Below, one piece after another: positions 13,052 through 50,835 of a DNA stretch of 64,000 bases. Each line of letters starts with the position of its first letter. Within the stretch, counting starts at the first letter, position 1. The translations under genes were made by a program, and so were the position numbers. Source of the DNA: Branchiostoma floridae (taxonomy: Eukaryota; Chordata; Leptocardii; Amphioxiformes; Branchiostomatidae); contig NC_049995.1 in NCBI RefSeq assembly GCF_000003815.2, positions 13,731,551-13,795,550 of the forward strand, written 5' to 3'. The notes beneath the pieces are model-generated. The model was not told where the DNA came from and made no database searches. It saw only the letters and a list, made by a program, of their open reading frames with translations.

Positions 13052-13059
13052 TATAAAAG
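13052..13059 (+). promoter_or_regulatory. TATA box of CRH gene A
   Basis: TATAAAAG sits about 30 bp before the expected transcription start near 13080-13085. The following sequence runs into a GTGAGT donor at 13168, which fits a short noncoding first exon. Confidence 0.65.
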
Positions 13060-13081
13060 GCGAGAAGGACGATGAGGAAGT

Positions 13082-13167
13082 GCAGTAGGAGACCAGGTGG
13101 ACACGGCAATCCCCGGTGAGGCTTCAAAGACTTTGAAGAAGCGGATCTTCTAGCAGTTAGACAAACC
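13082..13167 (+). other. Predicted noncoding exon 1 of CRH gene A
   Basis: The start is estimated from the TATA box. The end is a consensus donor (aacc|GTGAGT). No ATG-led frame runs out of it. It would splice to 15499, so the gene has a 5' UTR intron like vertebrate CRH genes. Confidence 0.5.
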
Positions 13168-13900
13168 GTGAGTATTCACTGCGTTCATTTCATTGCAGGC
13201 GTTTTTTGCTAACAATTCTGTATCTTCGTTGGCGAAGAAAGCCAAGACGTTAATTTCAACAATTTCGTTTTAGTAGGGCTTATGATCATACGCAGCATGG
13301 TGATGTGCTGCAATGCAAAAGTAGAGGTAGAAGCTGTTGACCAAAGCGTATTAAGTATTCACTACGTTTATTCCATTGCAGGCGCCTTTTTTTGCTGAAA
13401 ATTTTCGTATCTTCTTTGCGAAAACAAGCCAAGATGGTGTTCATTTTAGTAGGGCTAAGCCACAGCCAGGTGATCCACAAAGTGATACAATGCAAAACAA
13501 ACTATAGGTATATCCAATGTCTTGACTTTTCTCTCGCTTTTCAAAGTATTTGTCAGAGTCTAAACGACTCATCAAATCTTCCCATTACCTACACATACAT
13601 GACATTGTACTTAACATTTTGTTTTGTCATCTGCTATGTGTAGTGATTTATGTGGCCGTAGAAGAGTACCTAGATTGATTATTTCTTTGATTGTGTCATC
13701 AATTCGTTGGCAAAGAATAGGCAAACGGCATAGAACATTGAAGATTGTTTAGCTTAGTAGAGTATGTGACTGTTCATGCGCTGCTCTGTGTTCCACAGTC
13801 TACTGTGATTGAAATATGGTCACACTTACAATAGGTAGATCCAATGTCACTACTAATGTCTTCCGTTAACGCGTATTTTTGTCTGAGTCTAAACCACTCG
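13168..13900. repeat. Three diverged copies of a roughly 180-bp unit in CRH gene A intron 1
   Basis: Copies begin near 13168, 13346 and 13665. Shared blocks are gtattcactacgttyatt, cattgcaggcg, tatcttcg-tggcgaaga, agtagggct and tagatccaatgtc. The rest of the intron to 15299 is AT-rich with nothing I can name. Confidence 0.65.
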
Positions 13901-15519
13901 ACAAATCCGTTTTCCATGACTTACATAAAGCTCCTTTAGCTTTTAGAGATGGCTATGTTTACCGAAATGTGATTAGCTCTTGCCACAGACGTAATATAAC
14001 TTCCTTGCACTTTCCATGATGATATTTCCGAATGGTGATATTTCATATCTTACAGTAGCGTTTGCCATTTCATGAAATGCTATTTATCGTAATTCGAAAA
14101 TACATTCGTGTAACATTGGATGCTAAACTAATCTGCCATTAGTAAAAGTATCTATGTTTGAGTTGCACGTCGTAGCCATTAATAGATTAATAGATCTTTC
14201 GTCTGAAACGTTTGCGTCTTAGTGAAATCCATCCAGTAGCTTGATACTTTCTTTATTAAACACCTTCTAACCTAGACGTCTAAGCTGTGTTCAAGTATCT
14301 TTCTAGGTTTGTTCAACAACGAAAAAAACAAACATATACAACCCATTCGTTGGCACCCTGTTTGAAATTTATAGCACTTTTATAGGCATTTGTTACGATA
14401 TCGATTTCTTAACATTTATAATGAATAGTTGGTGCATTTTCATTCGATTTCTTGATTCATAAATGAATAAAGCCAGCTGTATTGTGCTGAAGAATTGTGG
14501 CATTTGCATTGGCTAAAATACGTTTATCTTGGCGTTCTGTGGTTAACCGAAGATACGGCTGAGAAAATCTTGTAAGAAAATATATTAATTAAGCTACTTT
14601 TCGTGTTTCATTCAAAACAAAAAATGCTTATACATGTGTTTTTTGCACATTTTTTTCTTCCTGCTATCAACATCGATTGCACACCTAAAAGTCTACTACT
14701 GCTGTTTTTTTCTTCTTTATAATTTCCTTGCTAGGGCAATGCCACCTTATACGCATGCTTTCCCGAAACTCTACCAAAGTGAGTGATCTAATTACGCAGT
14801 TTAAGTGACAGGGCGTGAACACCCTTTTACGTCGGTGTAAAACAGCCAAGCCGTCATTAGCGTGACGAGTCGTTGACACCTCCGTAACGTCGACGTCATG
14901 GCAACTACACCTACTCTGTTACCATGGCAACTGTAGGTGTTAGAGGGCGACTTTATAAATGGATTATTGCTGATTCCCTAAAATCAGGTAGGATTAGAAA
15001 AGTATGATTGCAGTTCAGTCTATTTTCTTTTCAATTTTGTGACCCAACCTCGGAATTAACTGAACTATGTAGATTAGTTTCATATTCCGTATGCTCAATG
15101 TACTTTTAGTAAGATTCCCCGCTAAGTTAGGATTGGAGTAGATGCATAATTAATAACCAAGACTACGACCGGAGTCTCAGCCCCGAGCCAAGTCAGATGC
15201 TCATTAATGTCAAGTTGCAAAGACGGCATTTTGTAAGGAAAAATATCATGTTTGGTATGCCTCTAAAACGTACAGGCGAGACTTTTTTCATTATTCAATT
15301 AATGGTCACCATATACCACGGGGCCACATAAGGCCAACAACAAGACCTGAAGGCCACTCCAAGGTTATGGGTTACATTGTAACTGTAACTGTAACAGCAT
15401 CTCTTCTCACTAGGTCAGAAATATCATGATTGAGACCAGACCACTTAGACTAACTGACCCAATATGTGATTTTCATGAGTTAATCGTCATTTTTGCAGGT
15501 CTACAAAACAGAGTACGGA

Positions 15520-16395
15520 ATGGCTCACTCGTTGCTACTCGTTCTCTTCATCGCTGTCGGCTGTTCGGTCTGCCTGGTCCATTGTGTTCCCGCGCCCGCC
15601 TCAAGGTCTCGCGAGAACTTGCGTATGGCGAAGCTGCTGATGCGAGACTTGGAGAACATGGGGCACGACGACAGGCACAAATTGTTTGAGGACATCCGAA
15701 CGCAGAGTCTACATGAGACGTCACCGTATCTCATCACAAGAGGTAAATCCAAACGTATTTTCTTTTAAATTCTAGGGGAAAACATAAGGCCTTGTCCTGA
15801 TACAGCTTGACGTAGGAGGGAGGGTACAAAAAATACTGTAAGTACTTCCCGTGTTACCATAAGAAGGAACAGTCTGTTTTATCTTTGAAAACAATAGAAA
15901 ACTGTACTGTGAAAGCTTTTCAAGAGTATGGGAAATCATCAAACCATTACTATCATATAAGATTTACTTCAGGGCGTTTTGAGTTACATCAATCACTCTT
16001 CTTCATTCTAGTGACGCTGAAGAAGAGTGATGAATGTCATTCAAAAGGTCCGGAAGTATTTCTCCGTTTTTATACAGCTATAGGGATTGAATTGTATCAA
16101 TTTTTTACCTGCAGATGTTACCTTCCTTTAAATAAAATATCCGTTTTATTGTTCAGTCCCGCTGCAGATGAAACGCCAGGCAGAGTCTCCGGAGTTGTCT
16201 ATCGGGGTGTCTGTGGCGCTGCTGCGGGACTTGGTTAGACTGCGCGAGGAGAGTCAGGTCAGGGAGGCCGCCATAGAGGCGAACGAGGATGACTTGGAGG
16301 AAATAGGAAAAAGAAGGTATAATTGTATTCACTTTAGTAGTAGTAGTAGTGATGGTGATGGTAGTGGTAGTAGTACGAGTAGTAGTAGTGGCAGC

Positions 16396-16429
<34 letters not shown>

Positions 16430-17354: not shown

Positions 17355-17430
17355 AATAAAGGGTATAGGAATAAAATATCAGTGAAGAATTGAAATCCGT
17401 TCTCTGTGTGTATTTGATGCTGGAAATAAA
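17355..17430 (+). terminator. Polyadenylation signals of CRH gene A
   Basis: AATAAA-type hexamers occur at 17355, about 17370 and 17425, roughly 450-520 bp after the stop. One of them probably ends the transcript. Confidence 0.5.
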
Positions 17431-24968: not shown

Positions 24969-27900
24969 ATGCGAGGAAAGTGTTTACTGTTAGCGGCGGT
25001 GTTGTTGAGTGTTTGCGGGGACGTGTTGAACATGTACGCGGCAGCGGCACCGCGAAGGTCAAGGGAAGACGCACGGAGGATGGAGGAGTGGACTGCTGCA
25101 CTCGTGGGGCGGAAACCCGTGCGGTATAACCGGGCTCAGGCTGAGGAAGATCGTAGAGAGACGGGAGAACTTCAGATCGGCAGAGCAAGAAGAGGTGTGT
25201 TCTCGTTATGTTTTTACATTGTCTGGTGTTTCTGTTGTTCGCATGACTCTCTTACTCTCTTCGTTACAATGCCTCAATTTCTCCGCTCTCTTTGTTTTTT
25301 ACCTTCACCAAGAAGGTTATGTTTTTTATGTTTGTATGTATTATTCTCTTTACTCTAAGTGCGCTTTGAAACTTCATGTACTACATAAGATTGCAGGATG
25401 TGTCTTTCTACCTTGTTCTGTTTCTCCGTCTGTTTTGTATTGCGGGTTATTTGTCCCTCTCTTGTTTGTTCAAGGTGGTTGTTTGTCTCCTTTCTTTTCC
25501 GTGCGTTCTGCATACACTTGGGATAACAGTGTGTGGTCAAACAGGTATCATTCTCTGTTTTGTTGTACTCAAAAGTGCGAGAAGTTGTCCCCGTACACTA
25601 GCCCTGCTTGTGTTCTATTTTTCGTCAACATGTTTTCGGTCGCTGGTGACAACGACCTATATATAGCAGATCGGAGCACCTAACGTATTTTATCATCATA
25701 AAAGCAGGTAGCTATCTTAGCGACGTTTCAAAGGTTAGACAAAGTTTTCTGTCCACACACACGAAGTGAGATAGGCGCAGATATGTCTCGTAACCGCCGG
25801 TATTTGAATCCAGGGCGTTACCACAAGTCCAGGCATCGGGTACGGTACGTTTTGACGTATCCAACCAGTGGATTTATTCCGTCAGACTGTATACACGTAT
25901 CAATCATCAAGACTTGTCGCAGGATCCCAATTTAGAACATGGTATAAATAGATTGGTCAAATACGGCGGGGACGTGTGTCCTTACGGAATGACAAAGGGG
26001 GTAAACACCTTGCTTTAAGTCGTGGCGTTGCGTGTGGCTTAACTGGTAGAGCGTTCGACTTGAAATCTAGAGGTTCCGAGTTCGATACCCGCGGTGCCCT
26101 CGACGGTGTGCCCTTGGGAAAGGCACTTTTTGAAGACCGTCTTCACTTCACCCAGGTGTAAAAATGGGTACCTGACTTCGGTCGCGGAGGTTTAAGAAAA
26201 GATTAGTACCTTTACCTCCTGCCTGTGTATGTAGCACTGTGAATATAAGTAACTAACTTGAGTGCAGTGCCCCATTGTGCTCGTCTGTCCAACAAGCAGA
26301 TAAAAAACACCTTATTCTAGAAGGCCAGGTAGACAAGAGGGCAGGGCGAAGAAAGACGCGTTCGTGAAAGCATGCGACGCCGAGAAACTCAAAAGACTTT
26401 AATGGTCCGGTATTTGGACTTACGGGGTGACTAGGAGGTAAATACCTTGTTATAGACTGTCAGGTGGATCGGGCAGGTGAAAGAAAGACGCGTTTGTGAA
26501 AGAATGTGACCAGGAGAAACGTAAAGGACTTTAAAAGTCCGGTATTCTGCCTTACGGGATGACTAGGAGGTAAACACCTGGTTAAAGAACGACAGATGAA
26601 GCGGGCAGGTGAAAGAAGACGCGCTCGTGAAAGTATGTGACGCGGAGAAACTTAAAAGACTTCAAAAGTCCGGTATTTGAACAAGTTGATGGTTTGAGTT
26701 AAGCTCGCGGATATAGAAGTGAAAGCAGGTCTTAACAAAGTATGCTTGATGTATCCTGTTTACCCGAGAGAAGGAATGTTAAACGGACCCGTTAAACGAT
26801 TTGACGGTGTGTAAATGAGGCTGACGTAATCCAAGCCTCTGGGGTTCGGGGTTTGAAGCCCGGTTAACTGACGTCATGTTCCATGCAAGAACCTGGTGAC
26901 TGTTTTGTACTGGAAACGAAGTAACCAATGCCTAAATACTTATAAATAGCTATATAGGGAGTAGTACTATATACAGACTAATTATCTAGCCACAGTATTT
27001 AGCTAGGCGCATGGGTAAGCCCCTATATTACACACTAACGCCCTTACGCCCTTACGTTGTTCTGGAGTCGCCCGGCCGGGTCGTTTGCGAAAATGAAAAA
27101 TGTAACATGAAAGACAAATTAACTACTTGGAGCACAATTTGTGATATTTATGGAATTAAACTTTTACTGTTCAATCCCAAAAACAGCGAGATGATAGTAG
27201 ATTGGCAAATTTTACGCATAGTATACGCCAACTAAAATTGGTCTTACTTACCCACAGACTTGACTATATCGTTGCTTTTGCATTTGCAATGATTTATCAG
27301 TTATGCGAATGTTCAAAAACCAAATGAAGCGGTTTTATCAGTTTAACTTTCATATCTGCATTCTTAAAAGGACTTAACAGACACATTATACAACACAACG
27401 AGGTTACATCGACATCGGTATTCGGACATTTTATCACCGTTAAAAATCAAGATATCATTTAACTAAGTTTTACAGTAGCAAATGTCAGAAAGCCCACGCC
27501 ATACACAAACCTGACAAAACAGTTTGTCTTTTCTACGTACAAACCTCGCCATATGGTGGTGATTATGGGATTTTTACGTCAATTGCGGTGGGAGTTGCCA
27601 CAATTTGGCGATCTTAGCTACATCCCGAAGCGTTGTCGTGAGTGGTTCCCTACCCGGTTGCCTGGATGTCAAACCTTCCGTCAACACCGTCCATACAAAC
27701 GTGTACAAATAACGGACTACAAGAACTTTATAAAGTAAACTTCGCCACAGCACATTAGAAATGGCATTCCAAAGTAGATGCCTTTCTTTGTCAATATTGC
27801 GCCCACCCTCAAAAAATCGTGACAAAACGACAAAACTATAAGTGCAGAATCGTTCCAAATCCTCTCAAAGTTTGAGTTGTTACGTTACGGGAAGATTTTT

Positions 27901-28557
27901 GCCTAGATAAGAAAGGCTACTCTAATTTTGAGAGCAAATTTCGATTTAAAGATAAAACAAAGTTCTCATCATAGCTTGGCTTACAGTTCTTTAATGCGTA
28001 GTCAGTCTCTAAGGAATTTTCTCAGTTTAGAAATTGTTCTTATCTTCTCATGAACGTTAAAAACACACCCGGAGCCGGATCACGTGGGCGTGCACAGAAA
28101 ACGCCCTTAACAAAACGTAATGACGTCATGAGAAACCTTCGCGTGTTTCCGCCGATAGCCTGCTGTCGTGACTGCTACACAAATAGCAAACGTAGTTAAA
28201 GGTCGGCTCTAAATGAATCAAAGGCGACCAATAATATAAAAATCCATGATATATCATACCAAAACGGTTAAAGTACTTTTGTATTGATTTGTATATTTGA
28301 AAGTTGTGGACATACGTTCCTAGTAGAACAGCGCCTAACATTTGATATAGTTGTCAAATTGTTGATACACTAGAGCTAAACTTTATACAAGATAAAGAAA
28401 TAGGTCAACCATGCATAACGCTTTTGACACACACACACACACACAGACACACACACAAATATATACACATACGCACACACACAAACACACATACACACAC
28501 ACACAAACACAGTCAAGCACACACACTCACACACACAAACACACAAGGACACACACA

Positions 28558-28588
<31 letters not shown>

Positions 28589-28599
28589 TGCTTTTGACA

Positions 28600-28643
<44 letters not shown>

Positions 28644-31600
28644 TATATATAGAGAGAGATAGAGAGAGGAGGAAGGGGCAGAGAGAGTTTGTATTAGATT
28701 ACCTACATGACTAGATATCTGATCCTCATGAAATATTAATAACTTAGGGTGATATGATCTGTATGACAGCGAGCCACACATTACAAGATTGATACATATA
28801 GATAACAGTAGGACAGGAACTAAACATCATCATACAGCTTTATAGGACGCCTTGAGAATATTGACTCCCTTTAGCGGAAAAGCCGAGCCTTCAAGTTTTA
28901 CATTACTAATACTTCATCATCATTCTCATCCATCCTCTTGTGAGGTGGAGCAGACGAAGTTAGACCTCTAGAACTGCTTGTCTTTCATCGCAGAGAGTAG
29001 CCCTTGCCATTACAGCCCTGTTTCGTCCTGAATGAGTTTCTTAAGAGTTGTGTTTGGGCGGCCGACCCTTCTCTTAAGCTTAGTGTCGGGGGACCACAAC
29101 AAGAGTCTTCTAGCTGACTCGTTGCTACGACTCGAGCGACATGCCCCGCAAGGCACAGCCGACGCTGTTTCACTTTTGTAGAGACTTTTGGTTGTGATCC
29201 ATACAGCTGTAACGTACTTATCTTATACTTGATAAGCCAAACAACTTTAGAAAGTCTACATTGACTCTCCAGTTCTACCGTTATCAGTGACGTTGATAAA
29301 TTATTTCTTTAATTCAATGACATCACGAAGATCTAAACAGCTCTATTTGGCCCTTTCTTAAGTATTCCCCACTTACACAGACCATCTACGTGATTATTCA
29401 ACATCATCACTTATAATCAATCACTTAGATAACATCGAATGATGTTAGTAGATGATTCGATACACACCGGAAGGCATGCAAAATTTGCAAATACTTGCAT
29501 CTGATATGATAACTCAACGCCATCACACAGAAACATTTTGTTGCAAGTATTGCATGTTCCTTGATATCATATTTTGAAAATTTTTCCACTAAAAATACAC
29601 GCAAATATGACGAACATTTCTGAAAACGCGTTCTCATCCCTAATTTACTGTAACTGTACAAAAGGGTGACACGCCTACAAGGTACTTTATCTTGAGTAAT
29701 GACTACTCTACTCTTAATTGCTACTAACCGATGTATATAGCACCGTTACCCGCTGTGGTAGTCCTATATGATTGTATCCACCATGTATAATGGGTCCATA
29801 AAGTGCGATTGGAAGGTCCTCTGGAACCCTGTTCTTTCATTCCCTTGTCGTCGATACGCCTCACAATTGCTACAATGTAGCACTGTAGGATTATGGACAT
29901 CTTACGTTAGTTTCTATGTGCACATGCGGTAAAACCTATGCAGTTGTGAACAATACTCGAGTCCTCAAAATCTTCATTTATTTGGGAACTTGCTTCCACA
30001 CGGAATGTTTTCCAGTTCAGCCTAAGACTGCCATACGTTTTATTTTGCAACTCTGAATATTGAGGACCTAAGAAGGTAACCGAACTCGAGGTCATAAAAT
30101 CGTATCTAAACCGTCTTAGCTGCATAAAGTGCCAATCAGAGACAATCTTAAAACAGTAATTACTTGTAAGCTCTTTTTTTATTCCCAAAATACCATTAAC
30201 AACATCTTGTAAAGATAACACATTCATCAAAGCAAAGAACAATACTGGACAATTCGGGGCAATTATCGCAAAAACATCACTTCTACAAAAGGAGCCCATA
30301 CTCCATAAGCGAGGATGAAAGACCCTCTAATTCTTATCTTCAGCAATTGGAGAAGTTTCTAAAAGCAGACATTCTAACTTAAACTGATTTCTTGCAACAT
30401 GTGCCTTCAAGGCATTCATCAAACAACGTCAAACCTAACAAAACCAACCATAGGTTTGCCAGACAAACGTATCAGTGCCTCAAGCATGTAACATTCTCCA
30501 CCGCAAATTCACCTCCACAAATGTACAAAGGTTTAAAGCCCTCGCGTAGGTTTCATGTCCGACAGGAGACTCCCAGAAGTGCGCGGTGGAGTTGTAGAAA
30601 CCCTTACGTAAATCCACCAAGGGTATACTAAGGCTGAAGTAGAGTTCTTATTGGCCAATTAGTAGTGTGAATGGGACATCTAAACAGCTGGTATTGTCAT
30701 GTATAGTATGTAGTAATCTTGTACTACTTTGAAACGTATTGAGTCTCTCAGTGGGTGTTAGATGGTGAATGGTGCATCCAAACACAACTGACAGCCGGTG
30801 TTGCCATGTACTATAGTTCTGCACTAGTTTGAAACGAATTGTCTTTTACACATCACGAAAATTTAAACGCTTATAAAGAAACTGATCAAATCATCAATAG
30901 GAAACAAATAATTCAACATATGCACAAATAACAACATGAAAGCTAACATGTAAAACCAAATCGTCAAATTAAAGTTGTAATCACAATCCGAATCCATCAA
31001 CCCCATTCTTACGTGAAATATCGTTAGCATTGGAGGTCATGATCAGTGTTCAATTTCTCATGATATATAGCAACATTCATAGTTTAAATGATACTGTATC
31101 TTCACATTCTACGCATTGATAAAAACAGAATATTTGCAATGATTTGCAGGAACATTGTGAGTATTTTGGTAACCATCTCGCCACAGAGTATAGCTACCCA
31201 TTACAAAGTAAAGGGTCTTCAAAACTATAAAGCTATATGAAATCATCGTCATATCATCACTAGCCTCAGGGTTCTTAAAAGTACAGGTCTGACCAGTAAA
31301 TGTCTGATTCAGCCACTAAAATGCTTTTCTTGATCCAATCTTACTTATAGTAGATAAAACAGGACCTTTGATGTCCTCTAAAAGCACATGAGTGGTCTGA
31401 AAGCCGATTTGTTTTCTTTGATTTGATCCTAATGTGATCCTACAGTCTGTTCTAACATCAAGGGTTTTACACTAGTGCACTGACCTCCGCTAGGTCATGA
31501 AAATATGTTACGCTTAAGGCTGGGTATTCAGGCTGAACTATACACTCAGGTGCAAAATGAGCAAAATGTTTCCGTACATTGAAAACATATCGCAAAATGG

Positions 31601-33050
31601 ATACTAATCCTAGTAGTTGACTGCCAAAAACAATGTCAAGGCCATGTGCAGGTCAGCCAAACAGGTCAATGCCTGTCTGCCTGCTCATCTGTCGAATCGA
31701 AAGGAGAATTCAGAAAAAAATTCACTCAGGTACAGGTGATAGTAACATACAGTTGTAGAACCAATTTCACTTTAAAAAGTTTTACTTGCTGTTAATGTCT
31801 ACAAAACACGAATGCTCTTTCACATATAGCTGGGCGAGTCTAGCTGGAAATGAGATCCGAAAGTGTTGGAGTATATCCAACTTAACTCTGGCAATGTCCT
31901 ACAAACAGCTTTGCCAATGAAGATAAGATGTTACGCAACACACATGGGAAATAAGCTCAGCGTAAGAAAATAGCGGTTGGAGCTATTTTGCTCACCCAAG
32001 GCCATGTTGATTAGATTATACGGATGGCATTAGTGACCTTGTCACGTTTCGTCCGCGTGCAGCCACAAAATGAGCAAATAAGTACGTTGAACACATATCG
32101 AAAAATGGATACTAATGCCGTAAAATTCCAAAGACAATTTCAAGTCAAGTAAGATGTAAAATGACGAATCTTTTGTTTAGTATTCCATAGGGTATATTGA
32201 GCCATTGGTTCAATCTTCGAGAACACTAAAATACACTTCTCATTAGTTTTGAGGTTTCCAAGACAAGCATAGAATACAAGTACAGACAGTAGGGTCGTCA
32301 CGTAGATCGTCTCTACTACGTGGCAACGCCAGCTCTACTCTAATTGCACTCACTGTTCCTATCTTCTGTTAAGATTGCACGTTTTGCCCTGTATTGATCT
32401 CTGTCTAATTGTGCTGGTGACTTGTAACTGTATATTGTACGTCTGTCATGGTAAAAACTGCAAACATGATCTGTGCGTTTGAAAAGTTTGCTCTTCAGGA
32501 AAGTTGCTGAGTTCCTTTTTCTCTTCTTTTTATTTTTTTCTTTTTATTTTCTTTTTATTCATTGATGTGAAAGTTTCAGTCAGTATTTTAGTCAGTGTTC
32601 GGTACATGTTATCAATATTTAAGCTGAATATTATCAGCATCGGTCGACGTACTTACGCACGACATCAGACTTATACATGCCCTTATGGGGTGATATACCC
32701 TTTCGCAAGCTTACTACAAGACGGGGATGCGCCAGGTCCCCGTCCGGGGGAATGGTGTAAATCACCGTATGGCCAAAAATATGTCGTAAACAAGCTGGAA
32801 ATCTTCGAACCTCCTAGGGATGACATTTGATTTCGTATATTGATGTACATTTCTGTCTGCTGTTTTTTCTGCAGGCGTGAGAGAGTCCGAGACGGGAAGA
32901 GTCCGTATCCCCCGGCAGGTGCAGGTGTCCACCGACCTGTCCATGATCCTCCTACGGGAGATGCTGAAGGAAGCCCGGCAGAAACTGGAGGAAGAGTACC
33001 GGTCCAGATCCCGCAACCACAACCAGAACCTTTTCAACAACATCGGATAA
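24969..33050 (+). CDS. CRH/urocortin-family neuropeptide precursor B
   Basis: Two coding exons, 24969-25194 and 32875-33050, join in phase 1 and give 133 residues. Exon 1 encodes a signal peptide ([20 protein letters not shown]...) and a basic propeptide ending in R-A-R-R. Exon 2 opens G-V-R-E-S and encodes the hormone. Cleavage could follow R-A-R-R or the internal I-P-R; the latter gives a 43-residue peptide beginning Q-V-Q-V-S. The core [15 protein letters not shown] and the end [10 protein letters not shown] followed by a last glycine (amide donor) and TAA are a close match to the CRH/DH44 family. No basic residues follow the glycine, so amidation needs no further trimming. The intron is 7.7 kb. 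Confidence 0.9.
26030..26290 (+). mobile_element. tRNA-derived SINE
   Basis: The A box (TGGCTTAACTGG) and B box (AGTTCGATACC) are spaced as in a tRNA, but the acceptor arms do not pair, so this is a SINE head rather than a tRNA gene. The body contains gggaaaggcacttt, cccaggtgtaaaaatgggta and gagtgcagtgccccattgtg, shared with 22498-22830. Confidence 0.75.
26331..26690. repeat. Roughly 130-bp tandem repeat, three copies
   Basis: Units share gggcaggtgaaagaa-gacgcg, cgtgaaagyatgtgac, gagaaac and agtccggtatt, with cttacgggatgactaggagg between them. A similar block at about 25979 lies on the other side of the SINE, so the SINE may have inserted into the array. Confidence 0.8.
28425..28660. repeat. 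CA-dinucleotide microsatellite with CT and TA tails
   Basis: About 220 bp of (CA)n with interruptions is followed by tatata and gagaga. All open frames across it are artefacts. Confidence 0.97.
28915..29180 (-). pseudogene. Degenerate LINE reverse-transcriptase tail
   Basis: On the minus strand the frame reads [12 protein letters not shown], then after one frameshift [18 protein letters not shown] and [13 protein letters not shown]. This is a common ending of chordate non-LTR retrotransposon proteins. It is broken by at least one frameshift and stops. Confidence 0.75.
32875..33050 (+). CDS. Exon encoding mature CRH-like peptide B
   Basis: Acceptor ttttttctgcag precedes 32875. D-L-S-x-I-L-L-R-E-M-L is the receptor-activating CRH signature, and N-L-F-N-N-I-G is the amidation end. 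The final codons and the next roughly 120 bases are repeated twice downstream. Confidence 0.92.
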
Positions 33051-33618: not shown

Positions 33619-34196
33619 CGAGGGGCGTGCAATAAGTAATGGTCCTGACCCACTTCCAGTTGTCTAATCTAAATGAAATTTTGTATGTGTAATAATTCAT
33701 ATCTCTATGGGTTATGTTGCAAAAGACAGCTCTGAACTAATTGTGGTTTCTGATTTACTGGTGTTTGAACTTAGTCAGGTGCGAAATGGACCAGGTGTGA
33801 AATGGAACCAGTTGAGTGTCGCGCAGTGATCCGGTTTTTGTATTTGAAAGGACGCACACCAAAGGGGACTTTTGATGAAATAAATGAAACTTATGGTGAT
33901 GATGCCCCATCATATGACCTTGTAAAACGCTGGCATCCTGAATTCAAACGTGGCTGGAAGTCTGTGGAAACAGCTCCCAGACCTGGTCGTCCCCCTTGTG
34001 CCATTGATGAGGCATCAGTTGGAGGACCAACCTGGGGTGTCCTACAAAATCGGTGTCCAGAGCTGCATCAAACGATGGGAGAAATGCATAACTCTGGGTG
34101 ATTCCTATGAAGAGAAAGACTAATAACTGTGCCAAGTTTCATTAATCTCCTGCTATGGGAAATGGGTCAGGACCATTACTAATTGCACGCCCCTCG
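33619..34196 (+). mobile_element. Internally deleted mariner transposon
   Basis: Terminal inverted repeats CGAGGGGCGTGCAATAAGTA / AATTGCACGCCCCTCG are bordered by TA target duplications (33617-33618 and 34197-34198). The frame from 33802 encodes the mariner helix-turn-helix region (AVIRFLYLKGRTPK, APSYDLVKRW, PRPGRPP). In another frame near 34060-34121 the C-terminal motif CIKRWEKCITLGDSYEEKD is visible. The whole catalytic region is missing, so it cannot move itself. Confidence 0.92.
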
Positions 34197-34281
34197 TATA
34201 TATGTAAGGAAGAGCCGCTGGAAACACTTAGTGTTCTGACAGTTATCATTTTGAATGTTCTCAGGTTTTATGTATCTTAAG

Positions 34282-34607
34282 CTAAGGGCACAACCCGCCG
34301 TACGTGCAATTTGTCCGTACGTTTTTGGGAGGCTACATCCGACACGTTTTTCCGAAAACGTCCAGGCTGTACAGGGCAGGCGCGTCGCCCGTACTAGCAC
34401 GTACGGGGGGCGAATCCGCAGCCCAATGGCACACAAAGTTTTGCCTGCACGTAAAGTTCTACGGCGTGTCTGTGTGCTCTAAAATTCGTCGGATTCCCTA
34501 CGAGTTCGTACGGAGGTGGTACTTACCGATTACGGATCCCAAAAGATTGCCCACGTTTTAGCACGTAGACAGCACGTATTTCAACGTACGGTGGGTTGTG
34601 CCCTTAG
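34282..34607. mobile_element. Inverted-repeat element CTAAGGGCACAACCC, copy 1
   Basis: It begins CTAAGGGCACAACCCGCCGT and ends ACGGTGGGTTGTGCCCTTAG. CTTAAG on both sides (34276-34281 and 34608-34613) may be the target duplication. It is very rich in tacgt/acgta motifs. No protein is encoded. Confidence 0.8.
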
Positions 34608-35560: not shown

Positions 35561-35757
35561 ATTACATTAATAAATGAATGAAAGACCTTTATTGTACATT
35601 CATGCCTCGACGGGCTAGGTACAGGTCACTGATAACAGACATAACAGACATATGCAGGGACAACAAGATACAATTTAACTAATTGAAGGTACTAAGCTAA
35701 CAGGATGGTCGACATCTTCTCGCTTCTTTGTACAGGTGTAGATATAGGAACAAATAA
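35561..35757 (-). mobile_element. LINE-like 3' end, minus strand
   Basis: Reverse-complemented, the sequence ends in caataaaggtctttcattcattt, a LINE-like 3' terminus. Bases 35641-35757 are almost identical to 59040-59156, which marks a dispersed repeat. Confidence 0.5.
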
Positions 35758-37549
35758 TTAATGTACCAACGTCACCTGGTATCGTTACTAGTCAACAGTC
35801 ACAAATCACAAGCACAATTAGATACTTAGTCGTACTGCACGAGTCATCGTCTAATTTTAGAAATCTTATTATGTGTAATGTCTGCAGTTTTAAGCACTAT
35901 CGCAAGGAGGCGTCAATAGTCAAGGGCAAGTGTGGCCACAAAAGGTAAAATTCAATAAAAACAAATTGAGACTAATTTTGACAGAACATCGGACTTTTAA
36001 TTCAATGCCTGATTCATATTCAACTATTCCATACACCGAACATGTTAAAACAAGAAATTCCGGTCGATCTAGAGTACAGAAAGTGGGAAATCTAAAATTG
36101 CCCTCTAGCGGAAATATTCATACTGCTTTCAAATGCATTACTTGCGCGTAAAATGGGGAGGACATGTTTCGAAGTGGAAAGTGCAAAGATCAAGCTTCAA
36201 ATGAGACGAAAATTCCAAAGTCATGATCTTGAAGGTAATACCGCGTGTACACTGCTTACGCATTGGGATCAAAGACTACCCTCTAAATTCTAATACTACT
36301 GAACTTCTGGGTCACCTGTGTGTGATAGAACTTCCTTAAAAGAAAATCTTAAGGACTTTGCTCAATGATATGTCGTTTTTACACTGTTTAAATGTTAAGT
36401 AATCACAAAGCACGAGCACTGTAACATCAATGCAATTCATTCCATTGGACTGCAAGATTGATTCGAGCAATAAAATCTGCATCCTATGTCTTGTCTTCAA
36501 AATTGGAAAGGAATCGATAAAAAGGCAGAAAAATGACGGGGTTTCTAACAGGTGCCAGCCAATTTGCCGGTAAGGATGTAATAATGCCTTATGTTAGCGG
36601 CACATCAAGATATAAAAATACGTCACTAAGGTTTTTTGTCCTTATCCGACCGTATGGGGCCCGTTTGGATCCGAGGCGTATATGCCATATCAACACCGTT
36701 AGCTGAGATTTGCCCATAGCTGTAGAAGTATAATTTGAAAGTTTGCGTGTGGTTCGGCATGGTACATAGGATTAATCCATCAAAGTTTGCCTTGCAAACT
36801 ACGCATTATCTAACACTTCCTACTAAATAACATGCATCTATTATATTTTCTAGTATAGCAGCAAGTTACATAATATAGGGTAAATGACCCGCCCTTATAC
36901 TTATAGGTGTATACTGTGCCATAGTTCTAGCCTCGACCAGGCCTTTCTGTCCTACGGGGATGCGGTGATCACAGAATTCAGCAAGAAAATCGGGAAGGTG
37001 GTCAGGGGAGTCAGTCCCCGCTAAGGTTCATACTTCCCTTCCAGCATTTATTCACGCTTTGTTGTATAACAATTCGCTCAAGCGGGTTTAATCTATATGC
37101 AAAACAACAACCCTCTGATGTTAGATGACAAAAGATTCCTTAACGTTATGACACCACATATGCCGTGCGCCGAGGGTTTGAATATCAAAAGGAAGCTCCC
37201 GTTGTAGACATTAGCTAGGCATGCAGTAGTCCAAGACCATAGTGATGAATTATTTGATGACCTATTTGGACGGAAAATTCTTACACGATACATTCAGCGA
37301 AATGCCCTCTTGCAGGCAGTGGCTTCTTTGAACAAATGCAAATTAACAACAATCGCAAGTCTTGTGTTTGACTTTGCTTTGCCCCTCAAGCGACTGATGG
37401 GGTGTGGGACATGTCCATAACGACATGCGCGAAGAGGTTTTTTTTTTTCTTTTTGCTGTACACTTTCTCATTTGTTTCCTCTGCCGACATCCCGTCGGAT
37501 CTTTTTAGCTACTACCTTTATGTTCTACGTCGGAGACAAAATATGAGGC

Positions 37550-40318: not shown

Positions 40319-40338
40319 CTTAGCTTAGCTTAGCTTAG

Positions 40339-40622
40339 CTAAGGGCACAACCCACCGTATGTGCAATTTGTCCGTACGTTTTCGGGAGGCCACGTCCGCT
40401 ACGTATTTCTGAAAACGTATGGGACGACTGGCAAGAGCAGGGAGGGAGTACGTCAACACGACAACATAAGGTTCTGCTTGCACGTCAAGTTCTACGGCGT
40501 GTCTACGTGCTCCAAAATCCGTCGTACGTATTCCCTACGAGTTCGTACGGAGGCGGTACTTACCACTTACGGATCCCAAAAGACTGCCCACGTTATTTGC
40601 ACGTACGGCGGGTTGTGCCCTT
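40339..40622. mobile_element. Inverted-repeat element CTAAGGGCACAACCC, copy 3
   Basis: Same orientation as copy 1 with a short internal deletion (no ctgtacagggcag block). It is arranged head to head with copy 2. Confidence 0.8.
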
Positions 40623-42006: not shown

Positions 42007-42013
42007 TATAAAG
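42007..42013 (+). promoter_or_regulatory. TATA box of CRH gene C
   Basis: TATAAAG lies 114 bp upstream of the ATG and predicts a start near 42037 and a leader of about 90 bases without an intron. Confidence 0.6.
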
Positions 42014-42126: not shown

Positions 42127-45100
42127 ATGTCGCCGAAGCTGATTCTGGTCATCTTCTGCCTGAGCTTCCTCGCCATGCTCCTGGGCAGTAGCGGGGCGGT
42201 CCTCCGAGGTGTCGGGGCCGGGTGTGAGGGGTGCGGAGAGGAGGAGGCGCTCGACAGTTTTCTCGGCTACGATCGGTACGATCGAGCGTACGGCGGAGAA
42301 GGGACGAGAAGAGGGAGCGAACTACTGAACATGCTGATGAAGAAAGCGATCGTTGGTGAGTTCGGCTTTTTAATACCCTGTCACATTATCCACCATCTTC
42401 GGGCTTATTAATATAATATTTAAGATCGACAAAGGATTTAGCGTATTTTTACCTGAAAACCTGTCACATATAAGCCATACTTTGTACCTTGTACAACTGT
42501 TGTGCAATAAAGTTATCATTATAAGCGAGGCTCGGGCGATCGCCGCAGAATCGTCGTCCGGTCGATTTTCGCCAAACGTAACAGGGGTATAAAATTCATA
42601 GGTAATTTCTGAGCAGATCCTACAGTAACATATACATATAAGATAGTATTAAAAGCTGGCAGAGGAGTGAAGCCGGCCTAGGATTGCGTTTACCTAATAT
42701 ATGGCAAATCTACACCTCTTGGCTGACTACACTCATTGGCCAGTTTAGTACTATTTTATATCATCGAATGATCTGTTGGAGGTTGATTTATAGGAACTGG
42801 TAATAGAGCCAGAAGCAGAGGGCCGCACTGGGCACAATCTTACACAAGTTTATTTGAGACTTGTAAAAACTGTCAGTGGAAGCACTGCCACTACAAGGTT
42901 TTGCAGTGCAGTCCGAAAGCAAGATGGTGGTTTAAACGATAGGGATAGCATCCTCAGAAAGTAGATGAAATGTCAGCTATACATTCATTGTCGACTCTAT
43001 TTTATTATTAGCGAACATTATCGAACATAATTAACCACTATCGTATAATGGTAGTAGAAATACCGTCAAACCGTCTACACCAGACATTCGGCACAACAGA
43101 AGGTATAGATGCATGTCAAGAAATCATAGATATGAAACGATTTTCAAAAATTGAGAAATACTACAAGATTTTCTTAACGGAAGAATATACGTCGCCCCAG
43201 TAAAAGCCAAGCATGTACTGTAAATGAGTTCGCGGGGATTTAATTTCGCGATAGCGGGAAAAGGGAGTTTTCGTGGTGGTTTTAACTTCGCGGTAGCACC
43301 ATGCACTGTAGTCTCTTAATGCCATAGAAAAATGTTCTCGGTGGTTTTAAGTTCGCGGAGAAGCAGTCACCGCGAAAACCGCGAACATTAAACCACCGCG
43401 AACATTTCTTCATTTACAGTATTATGCGACAGACCCCGGGCCATGGCCCTTTCCCAACGTAATGATCACACGGGTAAGTTTTTCTGGAAAGGGCACGTAT
43501 CAGCGACCTAGGAGTCAAAACCAAACGTCCTCATCTGTTGCTCTTCACCTAATGACCAGATGGGATACCCTGTTATTTAGGCTGGAGCAGGAAAGTCTGC
43601 CCACTTACCATCGAACCTTATCCTTACAGAAGAGGCCTACGACCTTCTTTAACATATATCCTTTCGTGTATAAAACCACTACCCGTCAATTTTACTAAAC
43701 GCCAACACTTCGTAATTTGAAACTGCACAAAGCCGGCTTTTGACGATGGTTCTTGACCGCTGCATAAATGTTTGCAAGCAAAGTAGTGCTTGCTATCGTT
43801 GCTATCGTGACCTGCCCAGCCTTTGAGTTTTATTACTGGTTTATTCAAAATAGTATGCTTTGCAGCAAAAACTGGCTGAAACTTTAAAACTATATATCCG
43901 TGAATAGGTTCTATCATCAGGTTGGTACGTCATTGAATAAAGAGACTCTTTTTACACAACCAATGCTTTATCATCACAGACTTTTCGGTGACCGTCCGTC
44001 ACCTTCTTCCAAATTTACGAAATAGCCAGAATTACCCTGAATCTGATTTAAGAAAGTTTTTCATTCTGTTTGCCGTATGCTGGGGAGAGGGGTCGTTGGA
44101 CCTCTCTGTAATACTTCTAGTGTTTTCTTTTTGAAGAGATGTAGCAGACATACGTGGTATTTGCATACACAGGCATTCTTAGGGAGGTATAAACCGTTTA
44201 CAATTATGCCTCTGTCGGCATTCTATCCACATAAAACATGACCGGTCTAGAAGTTTCTGAAGTAGCAAGCTATTTATTTAGCAAATAAATGGTTTGCAAA
44301 ATTCGTGTTTAAATCAAGAAGAATATTTTGACAAAGACATCGTTTGTTATGTTTCTAAACCTCCAAATGCTTTTATCTTATTTTCACCTTACTTAACGAG
44401 AAGAAAAGTATGAAACTTGTGGATTTCAAGCTTAAAGTTTACTTTAAGTGAAGATTCAGAGGGTCATAACGCTCTGTCAACACAAGCATACATGTTTAAG
44501 GGATGATTGTACAGCAAACCACCCGTGAGATCGGCAATTACTTTTGAATAATGACGAGTGATTGAAGTAAACCACAGACGACATGCGGAGGGCTCCCCTA
44601 ATACCTGGATATTTCACCGCCAATTTTGCCTTTTATTTGTCGGTCATGAAACAATAAATACCATTAAAGTAATGCTTGAAGATTTAACGAAGAAGAAAAT
44701 GATCCACCAAAAAACTATAAACACGTTTGTCCGCTTCCTGTCCATTTATCCTGGTAAATACATCTAGACGTCACGCTATGTCTGAAGATGTATAGTGTTT
44801 CAAAGTATCAGACCAGGCATTCGTGTTATACAAGCAACAGGAATAAAACTTGATTAACATGTCAAAAAAATCTCCATACCAATTGACATGTATAATCCTT
44901 CCAGGTTTAACAGCAATTAATGTGTGGCTTTACTCCTACGGGTGTCACACGTCACCAGTTGGAATTGTTCTTTGATCTGAGTTATGAAAATCCTGTTGAC
45001 CTAGTCTGACCTAATATTACTACTTGTCAGGTATTAAAGCATCTTTACCCGTATCTTTTCTGTCTCTAATACTTTCTAAGCTTGCAGACAAGGCCGAATC

Positions 45101-48100
45101 TTTACCTGACCCAGTTTCAACCACTTGTCATGTAAGTTCAGGCCAAGCCACTCAAAAGATTATGGTCATTTTCTACTGAACCTGCAGAGATTAAATATAT
45201 CAATAGAGATGTATAGTTATGTAAGAACTACTATAATCTAGCAAGATACAGGGTCTCAAAGATATTATTTTGGAATAGATTCCATTAAGTGCATCCCTGC
45301 CATGGAACAAGTGATAAAGTGTAAAGCCGATTTACATGACAACAAATAAAGAAAGAACTTGCTGTTTGACGTAGGACGCAATAAGCACCGATTTGTGTCA
45401 ATATTATTAATGATAATAACTTCATTGTAATTTCATGCCCAAAGGCTAATTGCAAAGAAACTAAAGCAGTGGTATACAGTATTGTATACTTAACAAAGAA
45501 GGAATATGTGATTTATAGACAAATCAAAAGTGAAATATAATCTATTCTAAATCCATCTCTACTTAAGCCTCTACTTGCTCTACTAAATTTGTGTCAATAG
45601 TCAAAAGCCGGCTAATTGCAAACAAAGTAAAGCAGTGTTGTCCTTAAATGTATACCTAACAAAGAAGGGAAATTTATAGACATTTTATTTTTTAGATTTG
45701 TGTCAATAGTCAAAAAAACGGAAAGGGATAGGCTCATTCTTTCAACACTATGTCTGAAGAACAGTAGATGATCATAAAGTTTTTTTCATTCACTTCGTTT
45801 TTCCTTCGTTTGTTTACTATTTTTTTTTGCGCACCACCACCTGCCACACTAGCTGCACCTTGTTTCCCAGGACGCGATGTGCCGTGAGACACTTTGTCAT
45901 GTACTGTGTAGAAGGAGAAGTATAGGTAGAAATAAAACGATAGCTTTTAGCAGTCAAGTAGCCGAGGAAGAAAATATAAGTTCGACTTCTTCACTCCGAC
46001 CGGATGAAAAAAAATTGCGATTGGGGAGGAAAAGAGGTGGGAGGAGAGGAAAGGCCTCGACCTTCCAACACCTTTCCTGAAGAACAGTGGATACACTAAA
46101 TTCAACTATTGTATATTTCGCTTTCATAACAAACCCTCATCTGTGCTTCGTGGCTGAATAGAAAAGAAAAAAAAAACATACTATTGACTTTACTTCCAAA
46201 TAACATCGTCTTGACATCATGTGGTAAGAGTTTCTTAGCCCATGGCTACTTCCCCTCAGCCAATGAGGAGCCCCCATTTTCTGTTGATATATCCCATAGT
46301 ATGGTGCTACGAAAAAAACTGTGCTGCTATTTCATGCAAATGAGGAAAAAACTGTGGTGATATCAAGAAAACTGTGGTGATATCAGCCTGAAAAGTGTGG
46401 GTGCTATACGCATGTGACCTGTTCTGACCAACCCTAGCTTACCTTTGAGCCCATCTTCTGGGACTAGAATTGTGTCATGTGATAACTGACCAATCCCACT
46501 CTTCACTTCTAATTGCCCAGAGGAATATCACCAGACTTTCTGTCTCTCCGGGTACCTTGACCGGGAAGGTCTTGACCGTGTGTTGTTACATCCTGACACT
46601 GTCTGTCACAGCTTTTCAAGCAATAACAAGAAAGATTGTGGACTTTTAGGACAAAATAAAGTAACATTTTGTAAAGCTGATGAACTAGAAAAGCTTCGGG
46701 GAGGTATGCCATGGGCTAAGTTAGTTACCCCATGGCCTTGGGCTCGTTTTCTGTGTATATCACCAGGCCCTCCACCTAGAAGGTGTCTCGGGGAGACTAG
46801 AAACCCCTCGATGGGCGGGCCTGGTGATATATACAGAAACCTCGCCCCGCCCATGGGGTAACTATTACATGTTCAGATAATCTTTACATCCTGTTGACAA
46901 CATACAGTGTTTATAGGAAGCTCGTGTTCTCCACCTACGTGCATTTTCTAAATATGTACAGGAAGATCTATCGTTAACAACTATGAATATCCGTCTAGAA
47001 TGTCATGTTTGAGACATTCACGGATGGAAGCGATGAAGATTAATGAAGAACGGAAACAGAGTCGTGCTTTAGGAAGCTTGTGTACGTCTGTTGGGTGGAT
47101 CAAAACGTCGCTTGGAGGTGGTTATTTTTACATTATCACCTGAGATACAGGAAGAGAAGGTCTCTCCGTACAGGGCACAGTGCCAAGGTCTGTCGGCAAG
47201 TGTGGCTCCACTTCCCGCTTACACATATGAAGAGGGGAAAGACGAGTTTTAATTGGGTCCGCTTGAGATAAACCAGATGGGTGCGCGTGGGCACGGTTGC
47301 AAAAACGCCGCACCTTAGAACTATAACACTCCTATTGTGCTGAACTGTAATTATATTATAGTAGGGTGCAATAGATGCGTGATTCAGAAATGAGACAGTG
47401 TAACTCATTGGTCTTCAAGTCCCTAGAACTGCGAACACCTAGGGCATTGTAAATTGTCGATGTTGACTATAAAAACACGGCACCTTAGAACTAAAACACC
47501 CGCATTGTGCTGAACTGTAATAGTAGAGTGCAACAGATGCGTGATTTGGAAATGAGACATTACACTCATTGGTCTTAGCCCCCCAAGTAGGGTTGTGGCC
47601 AGAGGCGAGCGCCGAATGCGGTTGCCAAACTAGGGATGTCTGGGGGCATGATCCCCGGGAAAATTTGAAAATCCAAAAAACTCTCTAAAACGCAAGTTTA
47701 TGTATTTTCATAGGCAAAACTTCATTTCACTTCAACTTCAACTTCAAAGCCAAGACACCTAAGATATTGTGAATGGACGACGTTGACCATACATCATCCA
47801 GCCTTAGCTTTTGTTTAAAGATAACGGAAAATATGAATGGTAGTAGCTATAGCTGAGATATGAGTTTGAATGACGTCATAGATCGCATCTATACCATTGC
47901 ACATAAACATCATGTCACGTCGATGATATTGTCTCTTATTTTTCCTGTTAACATGTTTATGTATAGGCATGATATGGTCTTAACGTTTGCACTGTGATAA
48001 GGTATATTTATAGATACTTTCCGCATGTTGCTAAGACACATACTCGCTCCCGACTTGTTGATTGCTGATCAATTGTTCGATCAATGAATTGATTGGTCAA

Positions 48101-49043
48101 TTGACTGATTGGCCGATTTTTTTGTGGCTACACCAAATTGGCTGGAGAAATCCATTGCAATGCGTAAATGAACACCTTACTGGGAGAACTTTTTGCCACT
48201 GATTGATTGAGCAATGTTTTGATTTATTTGTTGACTTATTGATTGACAAATTAATTTATCTTTACGTTTCAAGGCCCCATTGTAAGGCGTCGATGAATGT
48301 TTCTATCACATGGCAGGCTAGGCAGAATATTTAGCCACTAAGTGATTTATTCATTGCTAATTTATTGATTGATTAATAACACATTGCAGGGAAAAAAAAC
48401 AACAGTTGCCACTAATTGATTGAGTTACATGTAAATATGAAATAACATCTATCTGCAAAGCGTTCTTTAAAACTACTCAGAGAAGATGCCTCTACTGTAC
48501 TTGGTGATAACAAATTCCACTCTACGATAGTTCTAGGAAAGTATGATTTTTTTTAAACACATCAATCCTAGGTTCGACTTGATAACTCTAGATCTGTTAT
48601 TTGAAGTCATGGCTGTTTCTTGTTCTTTTTTGAGCTGGTATTAGATACTTAAAGCTTATCAGTTGGTACGTCAACCAGTTTATTGGTCATTTTGTACATC
48701 ATGGAAAGTCTGGACATTTTCTTCTGTCATCAAGTGACATCCTCTGCGTAAACATTGACTCTCGCTCACTCTCACTTATCCTCGCCGCATATCAGACTTC
48801 GCTGAGGCGGGCCGTCATTGTTCTCCAAACATTGACTAATGTGTACATTGATTGATTAATTGATGTATTGATGTATTGATGTATTGATCCTGTGTTTCAG
48901 GTGCCCGTGCCCGACGGAACCCCCCGCACGTGGCCATGGACATCTCCACCATGCTGCTTGGTGAGCTGCTGGGAGCTGGAGGAGACGGTGAAAGGGCCAC
49001 CACCGATCACAACATAGACCTGTTCCGCCAGGCAGGGAAGTAG
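42127..49043 (+). CDS. CRH/urocortin-family neuropeptide precursor C
   Basis: Exons 42127-42355 and 48901-49043 join in phase 1, at the same place as in genes A and B, giving 123 residues. The signal peptide is MSPKLILVIFCLSFLAMLLG with cleavage near S-S-G-A. The propeptide ends R-A-R-R, a furin/convertase site. The predicted 39-residue peptide starts NPPHVAMDISTMLLGELL and ends DHNIDLFRQA, followed by G-K-stop, so it should be amidated on alanine. P-P-x-x-x-x-D-I-S-x-x-L-L is CRH-like. The usual arginine after L-L is glycine, and the middle of the peptide is glycine-rich (GAGGDGE), which would weaken the long amphipathic helix of the family. Secretion and receptor type are inferred from the family. 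Confidence 0.83.
42373..42590. mobile_element. MITE inserted next to the CRH gene C donor
   Basis: It begins ATACCCTGTCACATTATCCA about 17 bp after the splice donor and ends GTAACAGGGGTAT. Its ends resemble the 3257-3448 element. A truncated relative is at 20905-20960. Confidence 0.65.
42606..42790. mobile_element. Fold-back MITE (GAGCAGATCCTAC family), copy 3
   Basis: It shares gagcagatcctacagta, aagatagta and gctggcagaggagtgaagcc with the copy at 8857-9027. The right arm is diverged. Confidence 0.65.
43215..43421. mobile_element. Inverted-repeat element TACTGTAAATGA
   Basis: The ends TACTGTAAATGAGTTCGCGG and CGCGAACATTTCTTCATTTACAGTA-type sequence are inverted. The inside is built of ttcgcggtggtttta motifs in both orientations. 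Confidence 0.8.
46712..46864. mobile_element. Palindromic element TAGTTACCCCATGG
   Basis: The roughly 65-bp arms (tagttaccccatgg, gtatatcaccaggccc) are inverted around a short loop. The two sense/antisense ORFs across it are symmetry artefacts. Confidence 0.8.
48901..49043 (+). CDS. Exon encoding mature CRH-like peptide C
   Basis: Acceptor tgtgtttcag ends at 48900. The exon begins with G-A-R-A-R-R and ends G-K-TAG. The amidation signal and the N-x-D-L-F C-terminal pattern resemble peptide B (NQNLFNNI). Confidence 0.83.
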
Positions 49044-49084
49044 ACAGGAGAGACAGGACACGGCTGACGGTTACATGGGAACAA

Positions 49085-50350
49085 AGAACTCGACTATTGC
49101 TTCTTAGTTTGTTTAGACTATGAGCAAAACGATGTCAGGATAAGATGAAGCAAAGATGAAGCAGATTCAATAGCATTTTCGGAGCCTATGATGACTGGTT
49201 ACTTACCTCAAGTAGTGATTTCTCATTTTATTTAGACTACGAGCAAATGGTGTGAAGATAAGATGAAACAAAAAGATTAGCAGATGTTGATGATTTTATG
49301 GCATGTTAAGACTCTATGGATAAGACTCGACTACTTCTTAGTTTGTTAAGACTACGAGCGAAATGATACCAGGACAAGATGAAGAAAAAGAACGAGTAGA
49401 TTTGAGTAGAACTGCAAGTTTATACCATACGGATAAGATACCTCAGTTAGTGATTTCTTACTTCATTAAGACTTGGAGCGAAATGTTGCCAGGATATGAT
49501 TTTGAAAATTCTATGGCATGTCTAGACTCTACGGATGAGACTCCACTACTTCTTAGCTTGTTGAGACTGCGAGAAAAAATGATGCCAGGACAAGATGAAG
49601 AAGAAGCACATTTGATTGCATGTTTAGACCCTGGGATAAGATGTCTGATTAGTTATAGCAAAAGTCTATCTCAGTTTGCAATTTTCTACTTTACTGAATT
49701 TAGACTACAAGCGAAATGATGCCAGGACAAGATGAAGCAAAAGCTTTGATGAGACATATTTGATAGCATGTTTGGACCCTATATGGTCCCTGGTTACGTA
49801 CCTCAGTTAGTAATTTCCCACTTTATTCAGACCACGAGGGACATGATGGCAGTATTTGATGCAGGAAAAGAAGCAGCGGATTTTGAAGATTTTATGGCAT
49901 GTTTAGACTCTATGGGTAAGACTCGACTACTTCTTAGTTTGTTGTTTAGACTACGAGCAAAATGATGACAGGACAAGATGGGGAAGAAGCACATTTCATA
50001 GCTAGTTAAGACTCTATGGATGAGACTCGTTGTTACTTAAAGCGAAAGTCTATCACAGTTAATGATTTCTCTCTTTATTTAGACTACGAGAGAAAGGATG
50101 TCAGGATAAGATAAGGCAAAACAGGAAGCAGATTTAATAGCATGTTTAGACACTATGCCTAGGGATAAGATGCCTGGTTACGTAAAGCAAAAGTCCATCT
50201 CAGTTAGTGATTTCTCAATTTATTCAGACTAAGGGCGAAAATATGCCAGGGTAAGATAAAGTAAGAGGATTAGCAAAAAATAATGATTTTAAAGCATGTT
50301 TAGACTCTATGGAAAGACGCCTGTTTACTTAAAGCGAATTTCAGTCTCTT
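49085..50350 (+). repeat. 110-150 bp minisatellite, about ten copies, after the CRH C stop
   Basis: The repeated core is gactacgagcgaaatgatgccaggacaagatgaag; its start occurs near 49118, 49237, 49350, 49469, 49565, 49702, 49830, 49950, 50082 and 50227. No AATAAA is seen between the stop and 50566, so the array would lie in the 3' UTR. Frames of 65-118 codons across it lack a consistent phase and are not taken as genes. Confidence 0.85.
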
Positions 50351-50552
50351 CTCATGCTTTCTCGTTTTATTTAGATTACAGAACAGTACATTTTATGCTA
50401 CGATATCTGCGCATTCAGAATGTTAAAGTTATAGCAGCAATGGGAGATCGTAAAGTACGCTTAAAGACATAACATTTCACAGATTAATGACGCTTCATGT
50501 TATGTTCAAATGTCAGCCTTTAATGAATGATTAAAAAGAAACAAATGAAATC

Positions 50553-50558
50553 TTTATT
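50553..50558 (-). terminator. Polyadenylation signal of the VWD gene
   Basis: AATAAA on the minus strand (tttatt on plus), 278 bp after the VWD gene stop. It lies 8 bp from the convergent CRH C signal. Confidence 0.45.
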
Positions 50559-50565
50559 TTCATGA

Positions 50566-50571
50566 AATAAA
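50566..50571 (+). terminator. Polyadenylation signal of CRH gene C
   Basis: This is the first AATAAA found after the stop at 49043, which implies a 1.5-kb 3' UTR. Confidence 0.45.
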
Positions 50572-50835
50572 ACATTGGAGTTTGCTTCTACTGCTTACAA
50601 GTACTATTTGAATTGCGTTTATGTGTGTTATCTATAAATGCGAGACTATACAGTAATTTAAGGTTAATATGTTTGGTCTAAACTATGCTATGTGATTATT
50701 TGACAGGAACAGCGTTCGTTTTACAATCTACATGTAGAGTAGAGTTGAAGTCGAAAAGTAAACATGTTCTTGAGGCGTGTAGTCGAGAATCGAAGGCGTG
50801 TCTTTTAGACGTGGTTAAGTCGATGCTTTGGATCT

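Follow-up and report, generated by a model that had tools for sequence, protein, structure and literature searches.

The stretch considered here comprises 64,000 nucleotides of the genome of the lancelet Branchiostoma floridae (assembly GCF_000003815.2, contig NC_049995.1, positions 13,731,551 to 13,795,550 of the forward strand; hereafter the window, with positions counted from its first letter) and quite likely carries a tandem cluster of three paralogous neuropeptide precursor genes of the CRH/DH44 type. The genes, termed A, B and C, follow one another in this order on the plus strand, with coding parts at 15520-16316, 24969-33050 and 42127-49043. Each combines a signal-peptide-like start, a phase-1 coding intron, a basic cleavage site and a peptide of 39-43 residues that is followed by an amidation glycine; this arrangement, proposed by an earlier sequence-only reading, can be read in the DNA for all three. 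The cluster is real, with A and B as clear members and C as a probable one.

Gene anatomy

Gene A begins with a good TATA box at 13052 and a probable 5' untranslated exon, which together occupy 13052-13167 and end at the donor ACC/GTGAGT. Its coding exon 1 (15520-15742; G+C content (GC) 0.55 against 0.38 in the flanks) holds the signal-peptide-like start and the propeptide and closes with the phase-1 donor AGAG/gtaaat, while coding exon 2 (16157-16316) contains the dibasic site KR, the 43-residue peptide QAESPELSIGVSVALLRDLVRLREESQVREAAIEANEDDLEEI (16177-16305), the glycine and KRR. The frame stays open past KRR to 16503, through a serine-coding trinucleotide microsatellite with a GC of 0.37. 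This stretch is probably intronic, and AAG/GTATAA at 16316 is probably the donor of the gene, implying a further last exon.

Gene B consists of a coding exon 1 with signal peptide, propeptide and phase-1 donor (24969-25194) and a coding exon 2 (32875-33050), in which RIPR precedes the 43-residue peptide (32916-33044), a glycine and the stop codon; the cleavage site in front of the peptide is monobasic (PR within RIPR), and a possible polyadenylation signal lies at 33232. A frame matching the helix-turn-helix domain of the Mos1 transposase (PF17906, E 4.3e-10) is found just behind this gene (33802-34098, plus strand), representing a mobile element or its remnant inside the cluster.

Gene C has a TATA-like box, TATAAA, at 42007-42012, followed by a coding exon 1 with signal peptide, propeptide and the phase-1 donor GTTG/gtgagt (42127-42355). 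Coding exon 2 (48901-49043) encodes GARARR, the glycine of which is split by the intron, the 39-residue peptide NPPHVAMDISTMLLGELLGAGGDGERATTDHNIDLFRQA (48918-49034), then glycine, lysine and the stop codon. Behind the stop codon, in the presumed 3' untranslated part, a diverged repeat array extends over 49088-50380, with units about 65-78% alike, and possible polyadenylation signals are present at 50530 and 50566. The sequence-only reading had assigned a TATA box to every gene; this holds for A and C, and for B no TATA[AT]A occurs within the 199 bases upstream of the ATG, so that a clean TATA box is missing there.

The features common to the three genes go beyond their strand and order. In each, the coding intron is of phase 1, has GT/AG ends and interrupts the frame five to thirteen codons 5' of the mature peptide, and a single peptide, of a length within the range of about 38-47 residues expected for the CRH/UCN/DH44 family, is enclosed between a basic cleavage site and a C-terminal amidation glycine (KR/G-KRR in A, RIPR/G-stop in B, RR/GK-stop in C). 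All three peptides share this glycine, an asparagine eight residues before it and the pair LL. The N-termini of the translations, judged by eye, are hydrophobic; a screen that combined hydropathy with a phase-1 donor listed B and C, and A is absent from it with a donor, GTAAA, outside the set that the screen accepts. The GC of the six coding exons is 0.55-0.64, compared with 0.36-0.44 in the flanking sequence; these exons rank within the top 0.3-2.2% of window slices by coding-like composition, as measured by GC, and the GC at third codon positions (GC3) of the joined coding parts reaches 0.68-0.73 (with A cut at KRR).

Family membership of the encoded peptides

The assignment to the CRH/DH44 family was examined in 264 kb of sequence, namely the 64-kb window extended by 100 kb in either direction (200 kb of flank). 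A blind profile of 11 CRH, UCN and DH44 peptides, from which the lancelet peptides had been left out, was run unfiltered on 6,805 six-frame segments. Among the 5,046 segments that received a score, A took rank 1 (9.1 bits, E 0.50) and B rank 2 (8.8 bits, E 0.61), a ranking that is only suggestive when taken alone. Once the other two lancelet peptides were added to the profile, B rose to 15.1 bits with E 0.006, where the best of the remaining segments had 9.1 bits, and A to 12.9 bits with E 0.03, where the best of the remaining segments had 9.6. None of 1,000 shuffles scored as well as A against the profile, and 4 of 1,000 did so for B. Aligned with nine references by hhalign, A obtained 87% (E 4.3e-6) and B 82% (E 1.1e-5), and both carry all three residues that are invariant in these references, namely the serine in LS/IS, the asparagine near the end and the glycine that donates the amide, of which C has two. 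A search of sequences in the PDB returned a single match for B, 2l27_B ("peptide agonist", E 0.55), and none for A or C. By its letters, 2l27_B is a CRF-type peptide. Peptide A is very probably of the CRH/DH44 type, and the same high probability can be given to peptide B.

Two further filters rest on gene structure; both were written with the three genes already known, and both admit PR so that the monobasic site of B passes. When all peptides flanked by a cleavage site on one side and an amidation signal on the other were collected in six frames from the 264 kb, A, B and C ranked 1, 2 and 3 of 65, with pairwise scores summed over the 11 references of 470, 427 and 278, the next peptide reaching 246. 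Of 3,506 acceptor-like sites, three passed the second filter, which asked for a phase-1 acceptor, a cleavage site, 31-47 residues ending in glycine and a stop codon. These are the sites of B and C and a third that is antisense to the first exon of C; the 200 kb of flank yielded no such place.

Several results weigh against this assignment, above all for C. The runners-up of the blind profile follow A and B closely (8.6 and 8.5 bits), and C stood at rank 607 there and at rank 111 once A and B had been added. As many as 101 of 1,000 shuffles equalled or exceeded its profile score, and hhalign gave it 0.8% against the known members and, with A and B included, 9.7% (E 0.0033, 38 of 40 columns aligned). 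Peptide C has an alanine where the nine references have an invariant serine, and its middle contains GAGGDG, a stretch with little propensity to form a helix. The propeptides of A and B (190 of 1,000 shuffles as good) and of A and C (582 of 1,000) do not match. Finally, the Pfam model for the family (PF00473, CRF; cut-off 22.1 bits) matched none of A, B and C, and six of six known peptides scored above the cut-off with 45-63 bits; this failure reflects the model and not the biology of the family. Over the whole genome, the same model found nothing above the cut-off. Two weak places (C13 and C18; E 5.1 and 5.8) were short partial matches, and the one of them that was read by eye (L002) shows no CRH peptide.

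The standing of gene C therefore has to be considered separately. An unlikely alternative holds that A and B are of the CRH type and that C is their neighbour by chance, being either a gene for some unrelated amidated neuropeptide or a copy in decay; the failure of C in the profile tests, its missing serine and its central stretch would all fit this explanation. It is opposed by the agreement of C with A and B in strand, intron phase, exon plan and position of the peptide, and by a BLASTP match between peptides B and C that runs nearly from end to end (E 3e-5 in that single comparison). None of 1,000 shuffles matched the score of C with B. Besides the amide signal and the asparagine located eight residues ahead of the amide glycine, the two peptides have in common the pattern D-[LI]-S-x-x-LL-x-E-[ML]-L. 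Their propeptides show a weak match at the same place (RYNRAQAEE in B, RYDRAYGGE in C; 16 of 1,000 shuffles as good). C is, moreover, third of the 65 bounded peptides, and 0.15% of 2,000 shuffles attain its summed score against the 11 references. An unbroken frame and a high GC3 speak against decay of the gene. C fails the profile alone and is tied to the family through B, by the BLASTP match and the shared gene plan. It is probably a strongly diverged, CRH-type paralogue of B, filed here as a probable paralogue and not as a proven family member. The sequence-only reading had placed all three peptides in the family and had asked for profile scores better than those of shuffled peptides; profile, shuffles and hhalign bear this out for A and B, and for C membership is supported only indirectly, by its pairwise scores and by its connection with B.

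Searches of the genome with the three exons matched these exons alone, and fish urotensin I as a query gave no match, in both cases with a first pass that is insensitive to copies of such divergence (A, B and C miss one another); a fourth CRH-type gene may therefore lie elsewhere in the genome. A search for the CRH-binding protein family gave no match, but its controls were silent too, so that this result carries no weight.

Origin of the copies and relation to known CRH-type genes

The best explanation for the trio is that a single ancestral gene, which would already have had a phase-1 intron in front of the mature peptide, was duplicated locally long ago, and that C, with its glycine-rich middle and its alanine in place of serine, has since diverged most; the head-to-tail order and the common intron phase of the three genes naturally read as tandem duplication, as had been suggested earlier. 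Blastn of the window against itself on the plus strand gave 53 matches (E up to 1e-3), and in no case does a match connect coding exons of two different genes. The copies are therefore old and do not represent haplotypes. At the peptide level, A is 27% and C 31% identical to B.

The sequence-only reading had further regarded the duplication as independent of the vertebrate expansion. In a peptide tree of 14 rows and 44 of 49 columns, the lancelet trio groups together (68/77) and B groups with C (87/76), which weakly favours a lancelet-specific expansion of CRH-type genes. The tree is weak, which counts against this interpretation: no branch reaches the mark for strong support, the vertebrate peptides are left ungrouped, and A and C form long branches. 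Among constrained trees compared by the approximately unbiased (AU) test, placing C with UCN2/UCN3 gave p 0.028 and placing A and B with CRH/UCN1 p 0.062, so that neither orthology is supported; keeping the six vertebrate rows together gave p 0.125, and placing A with the insect peptides p 0.347.

These constrained trees also bear on a second alternative, according to which the cluster is the counterpart of a local duplication that preceded the vertebrates, the chordate ancestor having possessed two or more linked genes of the CRH type that gave rise to CRH1/CRH2/UCN1 and to UCN2/UCN3. The age of the lancelet copies would suit such a history, as would the published dating, which puts a local duplication earlier than the genome doublings of vertebrates, with invertebrates having a single gene (PMC9353778), and the founding duplication well before the split between agnathans and gnathostomes (PMC7406891). 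The same source contains a statement that no conserved synteny is seen in the cephalochordate (PMC7406891). The best tree unites A, B and C, the constraint on C is disfavoured and that on A and B nearly so, albeit within a weak tree, and the flanking exons belong to domain-shuffled extracellular proteins; altogether this makes the shared pre-vertebrate origin rather improbable, and an expansion within the lancelet lineage is weakly preferred. Lancelet genomes are very heterozygous, and an assembly artefact, such as haplotypes of one gene set in tandem, can nonetheless be rejected as having next to no probability, since haplotypes would be expected to be nearly identical and the peptides have diverged strongly, with no DNA match between the coding exons.

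Compared with known systems, the trio shows both family traits and peculiarities. Like the precursors of vertebrate CRH, UCN1 and urotensin I, those of the lancelet have a secretory start and close with a single amidated peptide roughly 40 residues long, with an LS/IS-x-D-L...LLR core and the asparagine eight residues before the glycine, and peptides A and B align with the vertebrate ones over nearly their full length. The apparent 5' untranslated exon of gene A likewise has its parallel in human CRH-family genes (PMC7406891). In contrast to the vertebrate genes, the lancelet genes stand three in tandem. Whereas the precursors of vertebrates, lamprey, hagfish and Ciona are described as encoded on a single coding exon (PMC7406891), those of the lancelet trio are split by the phase-1 intron; the coding intron common to A, B and C thus sets the cluster apart from the vertebrate, lamprey and Ciona genes. 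Of the 11 references, the insect DH44 peptide Manduca DH41 gives peptide A its highest pairwise score (61), and the start of A, SPELSI, resembles PSLSI; the additional residues present in the long insect peptides are missing from A. Among invertebrate deuterostomes, the ophiuroid Ophionotus victoriae is also reported to have multiplied its CRH-type precursors within its own lineage, the four precursors coming from transcriptomes (PMC5627052), whereas the lancelet genes are seen in genomic tandem.

In two papers dated 2020 and 2021, amphioxus is given one CRH-type gene: like Ciona and others, it is credited with a single CRH-like gene (PMC7406891), and elsewhere with "a single CRH/Urocortin peptide" (PMC8533218). 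One B. floridae precursor of the CRH type has been cited (PMC4772807); the published entry, GI:260786674, is perhaps, at a guess, one of A, B or C. The open literature searched contains no description of a lancelet CRH-type cluster; subscription papers and database gene models lay outside this search, and an earlier annotation is possible. That copies could be missed is suggested by their scores below the Pfam CRF cut-off and by precursors cut by an intron just before the peptide. With the trio, a known family gains new members at an informative position. Taken as three paralogues, it would undo the one-gene amphioxus baseline used in accounts of the CRH family, would indicate that the family multiplied locally outside the vertebrates too, and would provide definite genes for testing the time at which the CRH/UCN1 line parted from the UCN2/UCN3 line.

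Proposed mechanism and surroundings of the cluster

The gene anatomy and the sequence similarity of A, B and C are directly visible in the DNA; from this anatomy, and by analogy with the known family, a route of splicing, processing, amidation, receptor binding and signalling can be proposed. The precursors would enter the secretory pathway via their signal peptides, prohormone convertases would cut at KR, RxxR or RR, and the C-terminal glycine would be converted to an amide, releasing one peptide of 39-43 residues per precursor. The N-terminal glutamine of A and B could become pyroglutamate. The mature peptides would act on a class B1 receptor of the CRHR/DH44R type, usually through cyclic AMP. 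A functional family-B1 receptor similar to PACAP/GCG receptors has been described in B. floridae (PMC7251081); a passage in another report, which speaks against the proposed route, lists secretin-type receptors as unidentified in this species (PMC7481443). The three genes presumably have their own promoters, which would make separate places and times of expression possible. Because its middle is unlikely to form one straight helix, peptide C is perhaps, as a guess, a weaker or more selective ligand.

The neighbours of the cluster gave no usable synteny among the ten flanking open segments scanned, nine of which match Pfam domains, one of two PKD matches being below the cut-off. To the left of the cluster lie exons with thyroglobulin type-1, antistasin and C-type lectin domains (1610-7307, plus strand), and to its right exons for VWD, VWA, TIL, C8 and K319L-like PKD domains (55463-63697, minus strand), which probably belong to one or two large extracellular proteins. 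Within the latter region, a tandem array of 182-base units in 4.2 copies (60404-61132) reads by eye, in some parts, as partial VWA exons on the minus strand. Two intergenic segments, behind B (34280-34567) and before C (40337-40605), are 76% alike and probably represent a dispersed repeat, and two 118-base stretches on the same strand (35641-35758 and 59039-59156) are 99% identical, marking a recent repeat.

A last observation concerns another part of the same genome and agrees with the description of the locus as lancelet-like in the sequence-only reading. On contig C4, at about 13,999,700-13,999,900 (L027, L028), two KR-SFRNGVG-KR units lie 153 bases apart in one open frame, as in the NG-peptide precursor of B. 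floridae, a protein with two copies of SFRNGVamide (PMC5818035). The DNA pattern for SFRNGVG occurs at five places in the genome in all, two of them being these units, and a reversed control pattern occurs at two.

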